IMG/VR virus record: IMGVR_UViG_3300009152_000066
Span: 1-47,580 of that record
DNA length: 47,580 nucleotides
Origin: a virus
Reading direction: 5' to 3' (one strand)
Every line of letters starts with the position of its first letter. Position 1 is the first letter of the stretch. Position numbers and translations under genes: made by a program. Positions 3,125 to 13,319 of the stretch are shown here, piece by piece. The notes beneath the pieces are model-generated. The model had not been told where the DNA came from. It saw only the letters and a program-made list of their open reading frames with translations, and did not search any database.

Positions 3125-5167
3125 ATGGCAGGCATCCCTACAAGTCCAGCAGTCGTTTTCCTAGAGAAAGATAATTCAGCCTACCCTCCAAATATCAACT
3201 CATCCATAGTTGGTATAGTTGGTTACGCAACAAAAGGTCCAACAAACGAAGCAACTTTAATAACAAGCCAGGAAAACTTGATTAGAGTATTCGGAAATCC
3301 AAGAGAGAGTTTGCCTGGGCAAGGTCTTGAGGGAGCTTTGGAAATCCTTGAAACCACAAATCAAATAAGGTTCGTTAGAGCTACCCCTGGAGATGCAACT
3401 GAAGCCTCAGCTTATGCTCAGTTTGGAGCTTGTCCAGCCATAGTCCTAAAACCAGGACCCTACGGGCTAACTAATAATTTATATTTAACTGTTACAGTAA
3501 AAGACTCCAATGGAGTCACTGTTCTGGACGAAAAAGATATTGACGTATTATCATCAACAACTAATGTTAGTAACAATTTAACACAAGCTTCAGCGGTTGC
3601 AAAAATAGTTGGCGACGGATCTTCAAGACTGGATCATGCCTTTGTTGCTTTTGATTCAAATTCTGATTCATCTGGATATTTTGTCGGAGCCTACGCTGGT
3701 AAAGCTGCGTTGTTAAGCGTTCAAGCTTATTCTAGCACTGCACGCGAAACTTCAGATGGAGTATCAATCTTAGTGAAAGTTGACGCTCTATCTGGAATCA
3801 CGGTTGGGACTTTTGCCTCATCAATAACAGTTTCTGGATCAGATATTCCAACTAGCTCACTAGCCTATCTAGTAAGATCATTATATGATGGTGATGGATA
3901 CAATTTAAGCTCGGATATTAACACTGGGCAAGCTTTAGGTATAAGCATAGAAACTGAAAACGGCGGTGGTTTAAAGTCATTGCTGACAGTAAATAATGAA
4001 GGCGTCGCTGCGGAAACTTATACCATATCCCTGCTAAATGATACAACTTTCATAGAGAATGTTATCAACGTAGGTGTCGATAATGCTATATCAGATTATG
4101 TGAAGGGAGAACTTTATGGTAGCGGAACTTCGCTAACATATGCGTCTCCATTAGCTGATAATGTTACACAAATCAAAAATCTTAACACAGGTATTTCTGT
4201 AAGTGGTATTTCAGGAATTAATCCTCTGTTCGTTAAGTTGATTGATAAGACTGTGGGCCTTGCAAATGGGTCTGTGGGTTCCGTAACCACATCTGGGGTT
4301 ATAGGATCCCCCGCCACTAAGACTGGAATTTATGCCTTAGATGACGATCTACTAAATATATCAATGGGTATAGTCCCAGGAATTTCAGATCAGAGCGTTC
4401 AAAATGCACTGATAACTTTAGCTGAAACGTCTCAGAATTTCTTAGCAGTGGTATCCCCTCCACAGGGTTTAGACACGGTTCAAGAAGCTGTGGATTGGAT
4501 GAATGGTAAAGGAGATGGTAGAACCGCTGCAATAAATAGCTCCTGGGGCGCGGTGTTCTGGCCTTGGGTTCAGGTCTTTGATACATTCTCCTTAAAGGAT
4601 ATGTGGTATGATCCTGCAATATTTGCCGTAAGACAAATGGCATTCACAGATAATGTTGCAGAGACATGGTTTGCTCCCGCAGGATTCACTAGAGGCAGAC
4701 TAACTAAGCCAACGTCAGTTGAGCTTGGTTTGAATCAGGGTGATAGAGACGCTCTGTATGTTACAAATATAAATCCTATAGTAAACTTTGCACCAGAAGG
4801 TATTACTATATTTGGACAAAAGACAGCACAAAGAGCTTCCACTGCTTTGGATAGAATCAATATAAGAAGATTGATGATATTCTTAAGAAAGGTTCTATTG
4901 CAGACTGGTAGAACAGATTTGTTTGAGCCAAATGATGCATTTACTTGGGAGACGGTAAAAGATAAAGCAGAGGCTTTATTGTCCGATATCCAAGCTAGAA
5001 GAGGCATTACAGATTTCAGAGTAATTTGCGATGAGACTGTAAACACTCCAGTTAGAGTTGATAGGAACGAGCTTTGGTGCAAGATATTACTGAAGCCAAC
5101 TAAGACTGCTGAATGGATTATCTTTGAGGTAAATCTCACAAGTCAGTCTGCAAAATTTAGTGGATAA
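3125..5167 (+). CDS. 18: Tail sheath protein (T4 gp18-like)
   Basis: A 680-aa protein, close to T4 gp18 (659 aa). The N-terminus (GIPTSPAVVFLEKDNS and IVGIVGYATKGP) and the C-terminus (LWCKILLKPTKTAEWIIFEVNL) are the conserved ends of contractile sheath proteins, which interlock between subunits. The middle, about residues 100-420, is Ser/Thr/Gly-rich and beta-like, as expected for the variable outward-facing domains. The tube gene follows 5 bases downstream, the classic gp18-gp19 order. Confidence 0.93.
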   Translation: MAGIPTSPAVVFLEKDNSAYPPNINSSIVGIVGYATKGPTNEATLITSQENLIRVFGNPRESLPGQGLEGALEILETTNQIRFVRATPGDATEASAYAQFGACPAIVLKPGPYGLTNNLYLTVTVKDSNGVTVLDEKDIDVLSSTTNVSNNLTQASAVAKIVGDGSSRLDHAFVAFDSNSDSSGYFVGAYAGKAALLSVQAYSSTARETSDGVSILVKVDALSGITVGTFASSITVSGSDIPTSSLAYLVRSLYDGDGYNLSSDINTGQALGISIETENGGGLKSLLTVNNEGVAAETYTISLLNDTTFIENVINVGVDNAISDYVKGELYGSGTSLTYASPLADNVTQIKNLNTGISVSGISGINPLFVKLIDKTVGLANGSVGSVTTSGVIGSPATKTGIYALDDDLLNISMGIVPGISDQSVQNALITLAETSQNFLAVVSPPQGLDTVQEAVDWMNGKGDGRTAAINSSWGAVFWPWVQVFDTFSLKDMWYDPAIFAVRQMAFTDNVAETWFAPAGFTRGRLTKPTSVELGLNQGDRDALYVTNINPIVNFAPEGITIFGQKTAQRASTALDRINIRRLMIFLRKVLLQTGRTDLFEPNDAFTWETVKDKAEALLSDIQARRGITDFRVICDETVNTPVRVDRNELWCKILLKPTKTAEWIIFEVNLTSQSAKFSG

Positions 5168-9198: not shown

Positions 9199-9557
9199 GT
9201 TTCCCACGTAGCGTAAAATCTCACGACAAGTTTAAGTATCTGATGGACTGCATCGGACGGATTGAAAATGGCGATCCTGCGTTGCCAAAATTTATCCGAG
9301 TGCTGTTTTACACTCCTTGGGATAAGGCTGCGAAGAAGATTAAGGGCTACGATTGCCGCATTAATCTCTTCGATGTCCCAGAGGCTTTTCATGAGATGGT
9401 CGATTGGGTAGGTGAAGGTAACTTCAAGCAGAAGCACCTTAACTATGTTCCGACCCTAGTAACTTTTAGATATGGTGGCGATGAGAACTCACCGCTTCAA
9501 GTAGAAGTTAACGACAACCCGACTGCGATTCAATACGAGCTTGGATCCAGAGGGTGA
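9195..9557 (+). CDS. Hypothetical protein
   Basis: A 120-aa protein not recognised. It starts in an ATGA overlap with the previous gene. It is rich in aromatic residues and Lys/Asp, with a mixed alpha/beta look (residues 35-60 FIRVLFYTPWDKAAKKIKGY). It has no membrane segment or metal motif. Its last 28 bases overlap, tail to tail, the minus-strand sigma-like gene. Confidence 0.75.
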   Translation: MSFPRSVKSHDKFKYLMDCIGRIENGDPALPKFIRVLFYTPWDKAAKKIKGYDCRINLFDVPEAFHEMVDWVGEGNFKQKHLNYVPTLVTFRYGGDENSPLQVEVNDNPTAIQYELGSRG

Positions 9558-9892
9558 ACATTAATTCCAAACTTAAATTCAAAGTAGGACTCTAACTTCA
9601 ACCTGTGCCGCTTAATTTTAGTGGCAACTAGCTTTAAGTTATTAACTATTACCGTGGTGAAGTAATTGAAAGCCGACCCATTTTTCGGGTTGAAGTTTCT
9701 TAGAGTCCGTAGTATAAGGAGGAAGCAATCTTGTTTTGCGTCCTCCTTGTCTACTTTAAAGTGGAATGCGTCTATGATGTTTGAGATGAGGGCATCGAAA
9801 CTCTGCATGAGTTCCTCGTCTTGCGAAAAATCCCCCGAACAGTGAAGCTTAATTAATTCCTCAAACCTTTTATTATTAATATAATTAGACAC
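9530..9892 (-). CDS. 55: Late sigma factor candidate (T4 gp55-like)
   Basis: A 120-aa minus-strand protein from a GTG start. Residues 47-97 (DKEDAKQDCFLLILRTLRNF, then NPKNGSAFNYFTTVIVNNL and KIKRHR) follow the sigma region-2 pattern of gp55 proteins: acidic helix, FNP turn, aromatic F-YFT strand, basic helix. T4 gp55 is 185 aa, so this is short but still covers the core that binds RNA polymerase and the TAAATA box. The GTG lies 6 nt after a minus-strand TATGAT. Its targets would be the TAAATA promoters found here. Moderate certainty; a second sigma-like gene lies at 43813. Confidence 0.55.
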   Translation of the reverse strand: MSNYINNKRFEELIKLHCSGDFSQDEELMQSFDALISNIIDAFHFKVDKEDAKQDCFLLILRTLRNFNPKNGSAFNYFTTVIVNNLKLVATKIKRHRLKLESYFEFKFGINVHPLDPSSY

Positions 9893-9906
9893 AAGGTAAT
9901 CATAGT

Positions 9907-10935
9907 ATGAGAATCCTGCCTGATCCGTTTAAGTTGCAAAATAATTCCTGCAACGGATGTTCCATCCTTGAGAAGAATAAGCCATGCCATTCGATTATGG
10001 ACCACGAAGAGGAGGGTTTCCCAAACGAATGCTCCATCCTGTTCGTGTCCGAATCGTTTAAGATGGAGTTCGGGGAGCTTACCCCGTTCACCAGCAAGGA
10101 GGAGGCTTTGATTGAATCCGCCATCGAGAAGGCTGGGTTCAAGCATCTCCTAGGATCCGTGGAATACACGGCTGCGGTTAAGTGCCCAAGCGTTAAGGAC
10201 AAGGACATGTCCAAGGACGATAAGGATATTTGCCGTCAGCACATCGCTAGGACGATAGATAAGTGCAAGCCTAGCCTGATCTTCGTGTGTGGAAATCTTC
10301 CCATGGTGATGCTGACCAAGAAGTCTGGCATCATGAATAAGCGTGGTAAGATTATCGACCACTACGAGGGAATCCCTGTGGTGCCGATCTATAATCCAAC
10401 TCAGGTAATCGTTGAGCCTCAGAACGACTACCTGTTCTCCTTGGATATCCAGAATGCCATCGAACAGGTTCTAGTTAAGGCTGATGTTAACTCGGAGTTC
10501 ACCTGGATCATGATCGACGATATCCTTAAGCTGTGGGGCCTCGATACCTACACTCGGTTCGATGTAGCTATTGATATCGAAACTACTGGCTTGGACTTCC
10601 TTAAGGATAAGATTCAAACCATCGCTCTTAGTTTTGATATGGGTGACAATAAGCAATACACTGTCACCATCCCTGTGCATCATCCAGAGTTCGTTCAGCC
10701 CAAGGGTTGGATCACTGAGGTGGTAGACTTCCTCAACCGTGTATTCAGGAACCATACGGTTAAGGTCCTGCACAAGGCTCAGTTCGATCTTAAGTTCCTA
10801 AAGCAATTGGGGGTTGAAGTGAGAGGTGTAATCTCCGATACCAAGATCATGCAGCACCTGATCGACGAGAACCTCCCTAAGAGCTTGAAGGATCTTGTAG
10901 GTTATTACTTCCCCTCAGAGCAAGGCATCATCTAA
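9907..10935 (+). CDS. UDG-like domain fused to 5' part of PolA 3'-5' exonuclease (split DNA polymerase, part 1)
   Basis: A 342-aa protein. Residues 1-190 resemble Fe-S uracil-DNA glycosylases (families 4/5): C15-x2-C18 and C93-x15-C109 give four possible cluster ligands, with KPSLIFVCGN and a late YNPTQV loop. Residues 218-342 are a DnaQ-type proofreading exonuclease with Exo I D223/E225 in AIDIETTGLD and Exo II D294 in HKAQFDLKFL. The Exo III Asp is absent here and found in the next ORF. Phage SPO1 polymerase also has a UDG-like N-terminus. The stop overlaps the next start (TAATG), so the parts are probably made together and assemble. Confidence 0.85.
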   Translation: MRILPDPFKLQNNSCNGCSILEKNKPCHSIMDHEEEGFPNECSILFVSESFKMEFGELTPFTSKEEALIESAIEKAGFKHLLGSVEYTAAVKCPSVKDKDMSKDDKDICRQHIARTIDKCKPSLIFVCGNLPMVMLTKKSGIMNKRGKIIDHYEGIPVVPIYNPTQVIVEPQNDYLFSLDIQNAIEQVLVKADVNSEFTWIMIDDILKLWGLDTYTRFDVAIDIETTGLDFLKDKIQTIALSFDMGDNKQYTVTIPVHHPEFVQPKGWITEVVDFLNRVFRNHTVKVLHKAQFDLKFLKQLGVEVRGVISDTKIMQHLIDENLPKSLKDLVGYYFPSEQGII

Positions 10936-11441
10936 TGTTAGGACAAGATGGAAAGAAAGTAGATTGGGCCAACATGCCCTTGCCTATGATGGCAAGAGGT
11001 AATGCGCTCGATGCCTACTTCACTCTTAAGATCTTCAAGAAGCTCAGTCGTAAGATTGACGAGCTTAGAATGACCAACACCTACTACAAGCTCATCGCCC
11101 CTTCGATTAACATGTTCGTCAACATGGAGGTTGATGGCATGCTTATCTCGCAGCCCAAGGTGGATGAGCTTGGCAAAGGTCTTAAGACTGATATCGAAGA
11201 GAAGGAGGAGTCCATGTATTCCTACTCTGAGATCCCTGATAAGACCATGCAGGTAACTTCCACTGATGATCTAATCAAGATCCTATACTCAGTGGACAAG
11301 AAGCTGAACATAGTGGATATGGGATTTGGCTTGTTCCCACCTATCTCTTCTGATAAGACCAACGCACCGAGCACAAGCGCAGAGGCTCTGGACATTCTCT
11401 TGGAACAGCTTGAAGAGGAGATAAATAGACGCAATGGTTAA
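10935..11441 (+). CDS. Split family A DNA polymerase, part 2 (end of exonuclease and thumb)
   Basis: A 168-aa protein. ARGNALDAYFTLKIFKKL (residues 20-37) matches the Exo III region of PolA proofreading domains, with D26 as the third catalytic acid; the usual Tyr of this motif is Asn. NMEVDGMLIS (around 65) is the start of the PolA polymerase domain, and the end (NAPSTSAEALDILLEQL) matches the thumb segment before the palm. It has no activity motif of its own, so it makes sense only as the middle piece of a three-part enzyme. It overlaps part 1 by one base and part 3 by eight. Confidence 0.8.
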   Translation: MLGQDGKKVDWANMPLPMMARGNALDAYFTLKIFKKLSRKIDELRMTNTYYKLIAPSINMFVNMEVDGMLISQPKVDELGKGLKTDIEEKEESMYSYSEIPDKTMQVTSTDDLIKILYSVDKKLNIVDMGFGLFPPISSDKTNAPSTSAEALDILLEQLEEEINRRNG

Positions 11442-12528
11442 TCGCTTTGAAAAGCTAGAGCAGGACAAGAAGATCTCTCAGTCCGTAATCCGAGCGTTGC
11501 CTGATGACAAGCTCGTAGGTGCTAGAGACTTCATCAAGAGACTGCTTGAGTTCCGCAAGAGCAAGAAGCTCTACGATACCTACATCACTGGTGTGAAGAA
11601 TGCGATGAAGTATAACGAGACTAATCGCATCTACGTTGAATACCGAATCGACGGGACTGTGACTGGTCGTCTATCCAATGCTGGTCTTGATGGCAACGAA
11701 GGCAACAAGATGGGTATCTCGTTCCATACTCTACCAAGAGAGACTCAGTTCAATATCCGTGATTATGTCATAGCTCCTCCAGGGCATAAGTTCATCACTG
11801 CGGATATGAAGAGCATGGAGCTACGCATCCTGGCTCACCTAGCCAAAGAGAAGAACATGGCGCGAGCGTTCAATGAGCGTATGGACCTCCATACCTACTC
11901 AGCCTCGCTCACGTTTGCGAAGCCCATGGAGAAGGTCACTAAGGAGGAGCGTCAGATTGCAAAGGCTGTGAGCTTCTTGACGGTGTATGGTGGCACTGAG
12001 AAGACCCTGGCAATGAAGCAGGGTATCAGCTTCAAGAAGGCTAAAAACATTATTGACGGGTGGATGGCTGCGTTCCCTGGCGTTCCGAGATACATGCAGC
12101 ACGTAGATCAGTTCATTACAAAGAATCAATATGCATACACTATTTTCGGTCGCCGTCGTAATCTGCCTAACGCTGCCTCTGAGGCACAGTATATTCGTCA
12201 GGAGGCTTTTAGGCAGGGGCTCAACTTCACAGTTCAGTCTTCAGCTAGTGATACCCTTCTATGCTGCCTCTTGGGAATGGATGCTGAATTTAAGCAACGT
12301 AAGATGAGCACTAAGATCGTGGCTACGGTTCACGACTCAGTAGAATTAATCTCGCCCGACAATGAGGTAGAGGATGCAATTAAGATCCTCCACCACCATA
12401 TGATCGAGTATCCTTACATCAAGGAGCACTTCGGTATTAAATTCTCCGTTCCCCTGGAGATTGAGATTATGGTTGGAAGTTCGTTCGGATCAGGGGAGGA
12501 GTATCATATCAGCAGTCCCACTTCCTGA
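11434..12528 (+). CDS. polA: Split family A DNA polymerase, part 3 (palm and fingers)
   Basis: A 364-aa protein carrying the polymerase active site. TGRLSN lies near residue 77. Motif A is TADMKSMELRILAHL (D124), motif B is R173-x3-K177-x7-YG (the Phe of E. coli position 762 is F181), and motif C is VHDS (D301). The residue after the catalytic motif-C Asp is Ser, where PolA enzymes normally have Glu. The fragment lacks thumb and exonuclease, which are in the two upstream ORFs. This is the only polymerase seen and is PolA type, not the family B enzyme of T4. It ends in a 20-bp tail-to-tail overlap with a minus gene. Confidence 0.93.
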   Translation: MVNRFEKLEQDKKISQSVIRALPDDKLVGARDFIKRLLEFRKSKKLYDTYITGVKNAMKYNETNRIYVEYRIDGTVTGRLSNAGLDGNEGNKMGISFHTLPRETQFNIRDYVIAPPGHKFITADMKSMELRILAHLAKEKNMARAFNERMDLHTYSASLTFAKPMEKVTKEERQIAKAVSFLTVYGGTEKTLAMKQGISFKKAKNIIDGWMAAFPGVPRYMQHVDQFITKNQYAYTIFGRRRNLPNAASEAQYIRQEAFRQGLNFTVQSSASDTLLCCLLGMDAEFKQRKMSTKIVATVHDSVELISPDNEVEDAIKILHHHMIEYPYIKEHFGIKFSVPLEIEIMVGSSFGSGEEYHISSPTS

Positions 12529-12910
12529 GGGACTTATTGATTCTTGAATCTGGATCGCTAGCAGTCTTCTTGGATGTTAGCTTGCTCTTCATTCCAGACA
12601 TTCTAGCGCAGAAAGACTTTCTTCTTCCCGCAGACTTCTTTGATTTCTTAGCCTGATCTGCTGAGACTGGTGGCTTTAGGTTGTGCCCTTGAGCCTTTGC
12701 TGAAGCTCTACCTTTGGCATTCAATCCACCTTCTTTGTTCTGCCCCTCTGATCTTTGCCATGCTGGGGTCTTGCCCTCGCTTACTGGCTGGCATGATCCT
12801 TTGGCGTATGGTTTAACGCCTGGAGTTGGCTTATAGCCTTTCCAGCAGCGACCCTTCTTTTTCTCTAGAATAATTTGAATTATTCTTTCGTAGTGTTCGT
12901 TAAGAATCAC
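12509..12910 (-). CDS. Basic protein with conserved phage C-terminal domain (DUF6321-like)
   Basis: A 133-aa minus-strand protein from a GTG with GGAGG upstream. The C-terminal half (RKSFCARMSGMKSKL, then TASDPDSRINKSLRKWDC) is a motif I recall from many unrelated tailed phages under DUF6321; its function is not established. The N-terminal part has GRCWKGYKPTPG and SCQPV, a small Cys/Trp pattern also recurrent in marine phages. It is very basic and Gly/Lys/Ser-rich. The gene follows the disordered gene at 12912 by one base, so the two form a small operon. Confidence 0.75.
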   Translation of the reverse strand: MILNEHYERIIQIILEKKKGRCWKGYKPTPGVKPYAKGSCQPVSEGKTPAWQRSEGQNKEGGLNAKGRASAKAQGHNLKPPVSADQAKKSKKSAGRRKSFCARMSGMKSKLTSKKTASDPDSRINKSLRKWDC

Positions 12911-12911
12911 A

Positions 12912-13319
12912 TCAGCCTCCTTTACGCTTTCTCAAAATCTTTTTCATTAATTCTAGACGAGGTTTATTTTCCTGTCCGCCGCCAGGGCCGTCAGTGCTGA
13001 GAGGACGAACGGGGGTGGTTCTAGCCTTTTGCTTATCTGGGCCCTTGGATATATCCCCAGTTCTCGCCCGCTCGCCACCACTTGCTCCCGCTTGCTGGGG
13101 TGGTAATTCTTTTGTTCCTTCAGGAGGAACAAATTCTTTTTGGTGAAAATTTTTCTTACCGTTATTTTTTTTTGGTTTATTTCCAGGGTTAGATGATCCA
13201 CTTTTCTTTCCAGCATTTGGGTCCCCAGTGTCTCTAGGGTCGGTGTCTTCCTCTTCATTTAATCTTAGTGAGATTAATTTCTGGGCAACAGCTTCCACAA
13301 TTCTATCTAAAATATCCAT
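12912..13319 (-). CDS. Disordered Gly/Pro/Lys-rich protein
   Basis: A 135-aa minus-strand protein. The first 22 residues form a helix (MDILDRIVEAVAQKLISLRL); nearly all the rest is low-complexity Gly/Pro/Lys/Asn, ending in a basic helix (LELMKKILRKRKGG). Such helix-tail-helix proteins may be virion or scaffold-associated, but no family is recognised. An AGGAG site and TATAAT lie directly upstream on the minus strand. It is the first gene of the two-gene minus unit. Confidence 0.65.
   Translation of the reverse strand: MDILDRIVEAVAQKLISLRLNEEEDTDPRDTGDPNAGKKSGSSNPGNKPKKNNGKKNFHQKEFVPPEGTKELPPQQAGASGGERARTGDISKGPDKQKARTTPVRPLSTDGPGGGQENKPRLELMKKILRKRKGG

Follow-up and report, generated by a model that had tools for sequence, protein, structure and literature searches.

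A family A DNA polymerase encoded in three genes, with a divided exonuclease site, in a lineage of T4-type phages

Can a DNA polymerase be encoded in three genes, with its proofreading site shared between two of them? The question is raised by a 47.6-kb virus record from IMG/VR, analysed here over its whole length (the window), in which T4-type virion genes (the end of Gp23, a head-tail adaptor, a tail sheath stabilizer and the tail sheath) precede a block of replication genes (ThyX, SbcCD-like, RNR and DnaB-like helicase). Three ORFs on the plus strand occupy positions 9907-12528: ORF1 (342 aa, 9907..10935), ORF2 (168 aa, 10935..11441) and ORF3 (364 aa, 11434..12528). The initial annotation had read them as a family A polymerase split into overlapping genes in three different frames. 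The split itself was borne out by the ORF positions, the Pfam matches and the alignments described below. The frames, however, are 1, 3 and 1: ORF1 and ORF3 share one frame and ORF2 uses another, which makes two frames and not three.

ORF1 combines a UDG-like domain (Pfam UDG, 27.4 bits for a cut-off of 24.3) with the N-terminal half of an exonuclease, carrying Exo I and Exo II (DNA_pol_A_exo1, 47.9 bits). Its profile matched positions 7-128 of the Klenow chain, where the Klenow residue number is the chain position plus 323. ORF2 matched no Pfam family, and routine annotation is therefore likely to label it hypothetical; its profile nevertheless matched Klenow chain positions 158-294 (E 1.3e-7), which correspond to the C-terminal exonuclease half, with Exo III, and to most of the thumb. 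ORF3 holds the last thumb helix, the palm and the fingers (Pfam DNA_pol_A, E 2e-74). Taken in order, the three ORFs tile a single PHROG profile (phrog_17) at 499-783, 793-919 and 931-1237, and Klenow residues ~330-451, ~481-617 and ~625-904; the partition is collinear and no part is absent. Relative to the Klenow subdomain limits as we understand them, neither break coincides with a domain boundary: the first interrupts the loop that connects Exo II to Exo III, and the second comes immediately before the last thumb helix.

The exonuclease motifs were found where the initial annotation had placed them. Exo I (D223 and E225, codons at 10573..10581, plus strand) and Exo II (D294, 10786..10788, plus strand) are in ORF1, Exo III (D26, 11010..11012, plus strand) is in ORF2, and these residues align with Klenow D355/E357, D424 and D501. 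Those of ORF1 were invariant in 83/83 aligned rows, and D26 was an aspartate in 84/84. All residues of a DEDD 3′-5′ exonuclease (D-E-D-D) are present, divided between ORF1 and ORF2. The tyrosine which, in the DEDDy type, is found four residues ahead of the last Asp (Tyr497 of Klenow) is not: this position is Gly22 of ORF2, a glycine in 84/84 rows, whereas the tyrosine is kept by two unsplit relatives, MW202455 and Gordonia phage Yarn. To judge from these residues, nothing is missing from the metal site on paper, but the exonuclease may work at another rate or serve another role, with an activity that may be weak or altered. Because the Tyr497 position is invariantly glycine, proofreading by the split polymerase is best regarded as putative.

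In ORF3, the residues of motif A (D124/E129), motif B (R173/K177/F181/Y185) and motif C (D301) are near-invariant, so that all three family A motifs, the catalytic Asp pair and the O-helix R/K/F/Y are accounted for. No single chain was found to hold thumb, palm and fingers together: the thumb is split between ORF2 and ORF3 in 113/113 of the loci listed below. The assignment of the thumb to ORF2, and of palm and fingers to ORF3, is thus right for palm, fingers and most of the thumb, but the last thumb helix belongs to ORF3, because join 2 precedes it. Alignment with MW202455 and Yarn also revealed ~45 residues astride join 2 (11404..11535, approximate limits) that are absent from these unsplit relatives. 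They are shared between the C-terminus of ORF2 and the N-terminus of ORF3; little extra sequence is present at join 1.

The UDG-superfamily region of ORF1 (aa 59-173, 10081..10425, plus strand) was delimited by Pfam, profile matches and alignment. The profile of ORF1 matched the family 4 UDG 4zbx (E 3.7e-13), and the fold also matched 1ui1. Four cysteines (C15, C18, C93 and C109), present in 81-82/84 rows with gaps in the remainder, are presumably the ligands of a [4Fe-4S] cluster as in family 4 UDGs, and in that case both the fold and the cluster cysteines of family 4 are found in ORF1. The first UDG motif reads S-E/D-S, as opposed to what we take to be the GEAPG type of family 4, and the His of the second motif, conserved in 81/84 rows, is Asn163 in the window. 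These substitutions suggest that the domain (9907-10425) is perhaps a uracil sensor or a structural part, and not an active glycosylase.

Related loci were gathered by scans of IMG/VR that required all three parts, each scan returning the best 80 matches; split loci were called by profile searches of stop-to-stop frames, and loci were counted as distinct when the central 200 bp of ORF2 differed. At least 113 distinct loci have all three parts in separate ORFs, with ORF2 identities down to ~35%. The same split, looked for in these related genomes, is kept in all 113 loci listed, far more often than chance would give, and no clean joined gene was found among them. At one locus (L032) ORF1 and ORF2 are in one frame, on a poor contig whose frames are broken throughout; its near relatives L029 and L030 are cleanly split. 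The same three genes, together with Gp23, were also found on a 130.6-kb contig (L286, QCKN01000003.1) of a single-cell assembly, Prochlorococcus sp. AG-409-P03, which possibly indicates a host link, or else a co-sorted particle. Among 50,697 deposited phage genomes there was no close relative, the best reaching ~33-35% identity.

The initial annotation had remarked that phages of the T4 superfamily normally carry a family B polymerase, gp43. The T4-type capsid protein Gp23 (PF07068) was found in 9/9 records, including the window, and no match to the family B polymerase (PF00136) was found in the nine records, which are of 47-111 kb, some of them 91-111 kb, and possibly partial, nor was a family B polymerase detected in the Prochlorococcus single-cell assembly. 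A search for the sliding clamp (PF09116) gave no match, with controls that were equally silent. Nearly everything known of the carriers, a large T4-type group living in lakes and oceans, comes from metagenomes. Just ahead of the polymerase locus of the window, a 120-aa minus-strand ORF (9530-9892) has a weak similarity to Sigma70 region 2, below the Pfam cut-off, and is possibly a small late sigma factor.

The two joins of the window are those seen in the initial annotation, namely TAATG (10933..10937, plus strand), where the ORF1 stop overlaps the ORF2 start by one base, and an 8-base start/stop overlap of ORF3 with ORF2, ATGGTTAA (11434..11441, plus strand). Judging by the overlaps, translation is probably coupled across both. 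At join 1, the one-base overlap occurs in 73/113 loci listed, 70 of these 73 having TAATG; six others have an overlap of 7, 14 or 17 or a gap of 1, one has 42 bp, and in 32/113 an insert of more than 100 bp (173-2403 bp) separates the genes. All three values of the frame relation are seen. One locus (L049) is in no join 1 class: at its position 4526, ORF2 has ATC where relatives have the ATG start, which points to a non-canonical start, or else to an error in the assembly. Join 2 is more uniform, with overlaps of 8 bases in 74/113 loci listed and of 4 (ATGA) in 17/113, some longer overlaps, two inserts (585 and 132 bp) and a +1 frame relation in most loci; a purine-rich, SD-like match is found upstream of ORF3 in 72/82 loci. 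That the joins had evolved, and were not random frameshifts, is upheld by the 113 loci listed, but coupling is not required at join 1.

The join 1 inserts consist of unrelated genes, often on the opposite strand: an HNH_3 gene (L108), a 2OG-Fe(II) oxygenase (L079), a 271-aa ORF (L064 and L019), a small membrane-type ORF (L146 and L194) and many opposite-strand genes, some of them lipoprotein-like. On a tree of 83 loci, insert presence requires 13 changes, at least 6 of them forced by well-supported branches, and the insert has therefore been gained or lost repeatedly. A homing endonuclease was not retained as the cause of the split, the HNH_3 gene being the only one of its kind among the insert genes examined; as the other inserts encode oxygenases or small proteins of membrane or lipoprotein-like type, it is simply one possibility. 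A TATAT-type element was found at most 16 nt before the ORF2 ATG in 28/32 interrupted loci, versus 0/73 uninterrupted ones. A near-constant TATTATATAGNN-ATG abuts ORF2 in L080, L083, L085, L102, L123, L247 and others; in interrupted loci it sits between the leftward gene and ORF2, and it looks like a bidirectional, near-leaderless candidate promoter. In the window, two minus-strand genes lie directly downstream of ORF3, a DUF6321-bearing gene and its neighbour (12509-12910 and 12912-13319), and similar-looking genes sit on the minus strand at join 1 in other members.

A chain made of ORF1, a 15-residue linker and ORF2 of locus L007, in which two stops were read through as a device, was modelled with AlphaFold2. 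The exonuclease core had a pLDDT of ~85-94, and residues 195-425 of the model, which come from both genes, superposed on Klenow 324-544 (Z 19, rmsd 3.0, ~210 aa). The linked chain is accordingly predicted to be one Klenow-like exonuclease fold, a prediction that may owe something to AlphaFold's Pol I prior, since stops were read through and the alignment rows were unpaired fragments. When ORF3 was modelled alone, palm and fingers were confident and the thumb part (residues 1-46) had a pLDDT below 50, as expected if the thumb requires ORF2.

What else could give three ORFs at this locus? Three genes would be mimicked by a pseudogene in decay, or by frameshifts introduced in sequencing or assembly, and frames 1, 3 and 1 with overlaps are the pattern expected from two indels. 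Yet the breaks are identical in the 113 loci listed, from many metagenomes as well as a single-cell assembly, purifying selection acts on all three ORFs (pN/pS 0.06-0.31), the catalytic residues are invariant, and entire genes stand at join 1 in 32 loci. We consider this explanation so improbable as to be negligible, and sequencing error is excluded by the conservation of the split across loci. A single chain might still be produced by programmed ribosomal frameshifting, -1 at join 1 and +1 at join 2, for which the short overlaps and the prevailing +1 relation at join 2 could be invoked. This is very unlikely, given that join 1 shows all three frame relations and may hold as much as 2.4 kb of inserted, often opposite-strand genes, that join 2 shows overlaps of 4, 8 or more bases and two inserts, that the codons preceding the stops vary, and that nearly all ORF3 have a start codon within the overlap. 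Because 32/113 loci have inserts and all frame relations are seen, neither frameshifting nor read-through is the general mechanism. Separate translation is the only reading that fits all joins.

The pieces could also be rejoined after expression, at the RNA level by a group I intron or at the protein level by a split intein. Precedents are the intron carried by gp31 of SPO1 in the corresponding gene, and the split-intein PolB of phage MIJ3 (PMC6892783). The overlapping joins of the window leave no space for an intron, Rfam gave no match for 9700-12700 or for any of ten related loci, and ORF1 and ORF2 lack tails of intein length at the breaks, as a split intein would require; we find this explanation hardly credible. 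Another reading is that ORF3 is the working polymerase, that ORF1 and ORF2 are independent accessory proteins, and that the exonuclease is not rebuilt. It would suit the many loci in which ORF1 is apart from ORF2-ORF3, behind opposite-strand genes, as well as the glycine at the Tyr497 position, and ExnV1 is an example of an exonuclease fragment that stands alone (PMC9629493). Against it, ORF1 is without Exo III, D26 of ORF2 is invariant with no other evident use, the thumb required by ORF3 is largely supplied by ORF2, and the L007 model completes the fold, albeit as a prediction. This reading has a small but appreciable chance of being right.

We favour, with a probability of about 0.8, an ancient double fission that led to an obligate three-chain Klenow-like polymerase, the complex and its activity being what we infer. 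The ancestor would have been a single-chain UDG-Exo-PolA replicase, broken twice in an ancestor of the phage clade, one break falling within the loop that separates Exo II from Exo III and the other in the thumb. Three separately translated polypeptides would assemble into one Klenow-like enzyme, with ORF2 as the bridge: with its N-terminal half it would supply what the exonuclease fold and metal site of ORF1 lack, and with its C-terminal half the thumb above the palm and fingers of ORF3. Both the invariant D26 and the predicted fold support a single exonuclease built from ORF1 and ORF2. Overlapping genes would allow co-translational assembly, and interrupted genes would imply assembly in trans, which is expected in some members because genes, often opposite-strand, separate ORF1 from ORF2.

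The order of domains is not new. UDG, 3′-5′ exonuclease, then thumb-palm-fingers is also the order in gp31 of SPO1, in Lysinibacillus phages, in gp205 of PaBG, whose domain architecture has been described (PMC7412058), and in UOF77006.1 of MW202455. Unlike the three-gene form, these replicases are one polypeptide (in SPO1, via an intron), and in MW202455 a single ORF of 804 aa covers all three profiles. In the tree, which has long branches, a supported branch separates the split clade from three outgroups. Unbroken homologues were found well outside the clade only, as expected for an ancestral state, and since these single-chain relatives have the same domain order, the split is most likely derived.

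Split phage polymerases as a kind are already known. In Vibrio phage D69 (OZ195729, L204, 743-4622), a family A polymerase with a UDG is in at least three pieces; one break separates Exo II from Exo III and is occupied by a 181-aa ORF, which shares 26 bases with each of its neighbours. Its second break is at motif B, as against the thumb here, and its sequence is very distant; the D69 split is probably an independent case. The initial annotation had called a proofreading site made of two polypeptides unusual: the divided site is indeed conserved, but it is not unique in view of D69, and proofreading itself is putative, as said above. Family B polymerases are split in T4-like phages (gp43A/gp43B of Aeromonas phages) and in archaea (PolB of Methanothermobacter). 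They are likewise rebuilt from separate gene products, but belong to another family and are in two pieces, and we know of no divided exonuclease metal site among them. An intron has been reported in 25.g43B of a split gp43 (PMC2993671). In the OM43 phages MEP401 and MEP402, a family A polymerase is in two ORFs across the lineage (PMC10580990); there the exonuclease is whole in the first ORF, and the break, with a small ORF between, is in the polymerase domain, an intron being suspected by the authors (PMC10580990). Rhodothermus phage RM378 is a cultured Far-T4 phage (PMC4360716). Its p024 is a T4-type (Far-T4) polymerase piece with an exonuclease part, by eye of family B and not family A; RM378 was not retained as a relative sharing the split, since p012, p025 and p024, as annotated, have no correspondence to ORF1, ORF2 and ORF3. 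A description of the three-part form, with exonuclease and thumb both divided, in a whole T4-type lineage was not found in accessible papers, nor did a search of these papers turn up this split in Far-T4 or other T4-type phages.

Polymerase and proofreading sites are usually held to need one chain or whole subunits; here, the cuts cross both domains. The exonuclease metal site and the thumb are cut, yet the layout dates far back, occurs widely in lakes and oceans, and has not reverted in any of the loci listed. These phages are a natural test case of whether and how proofreading can assemble in trans, and of how gene fission gets fixed. More tentatively, the polymerase may be an obligate heterotrimer that proofreads in trans, its parts being in different transcription units in some members, in which case the balance between ORF1 and ORF2-ORF3 could determine what share of the polymerase is able to proofread during infection.
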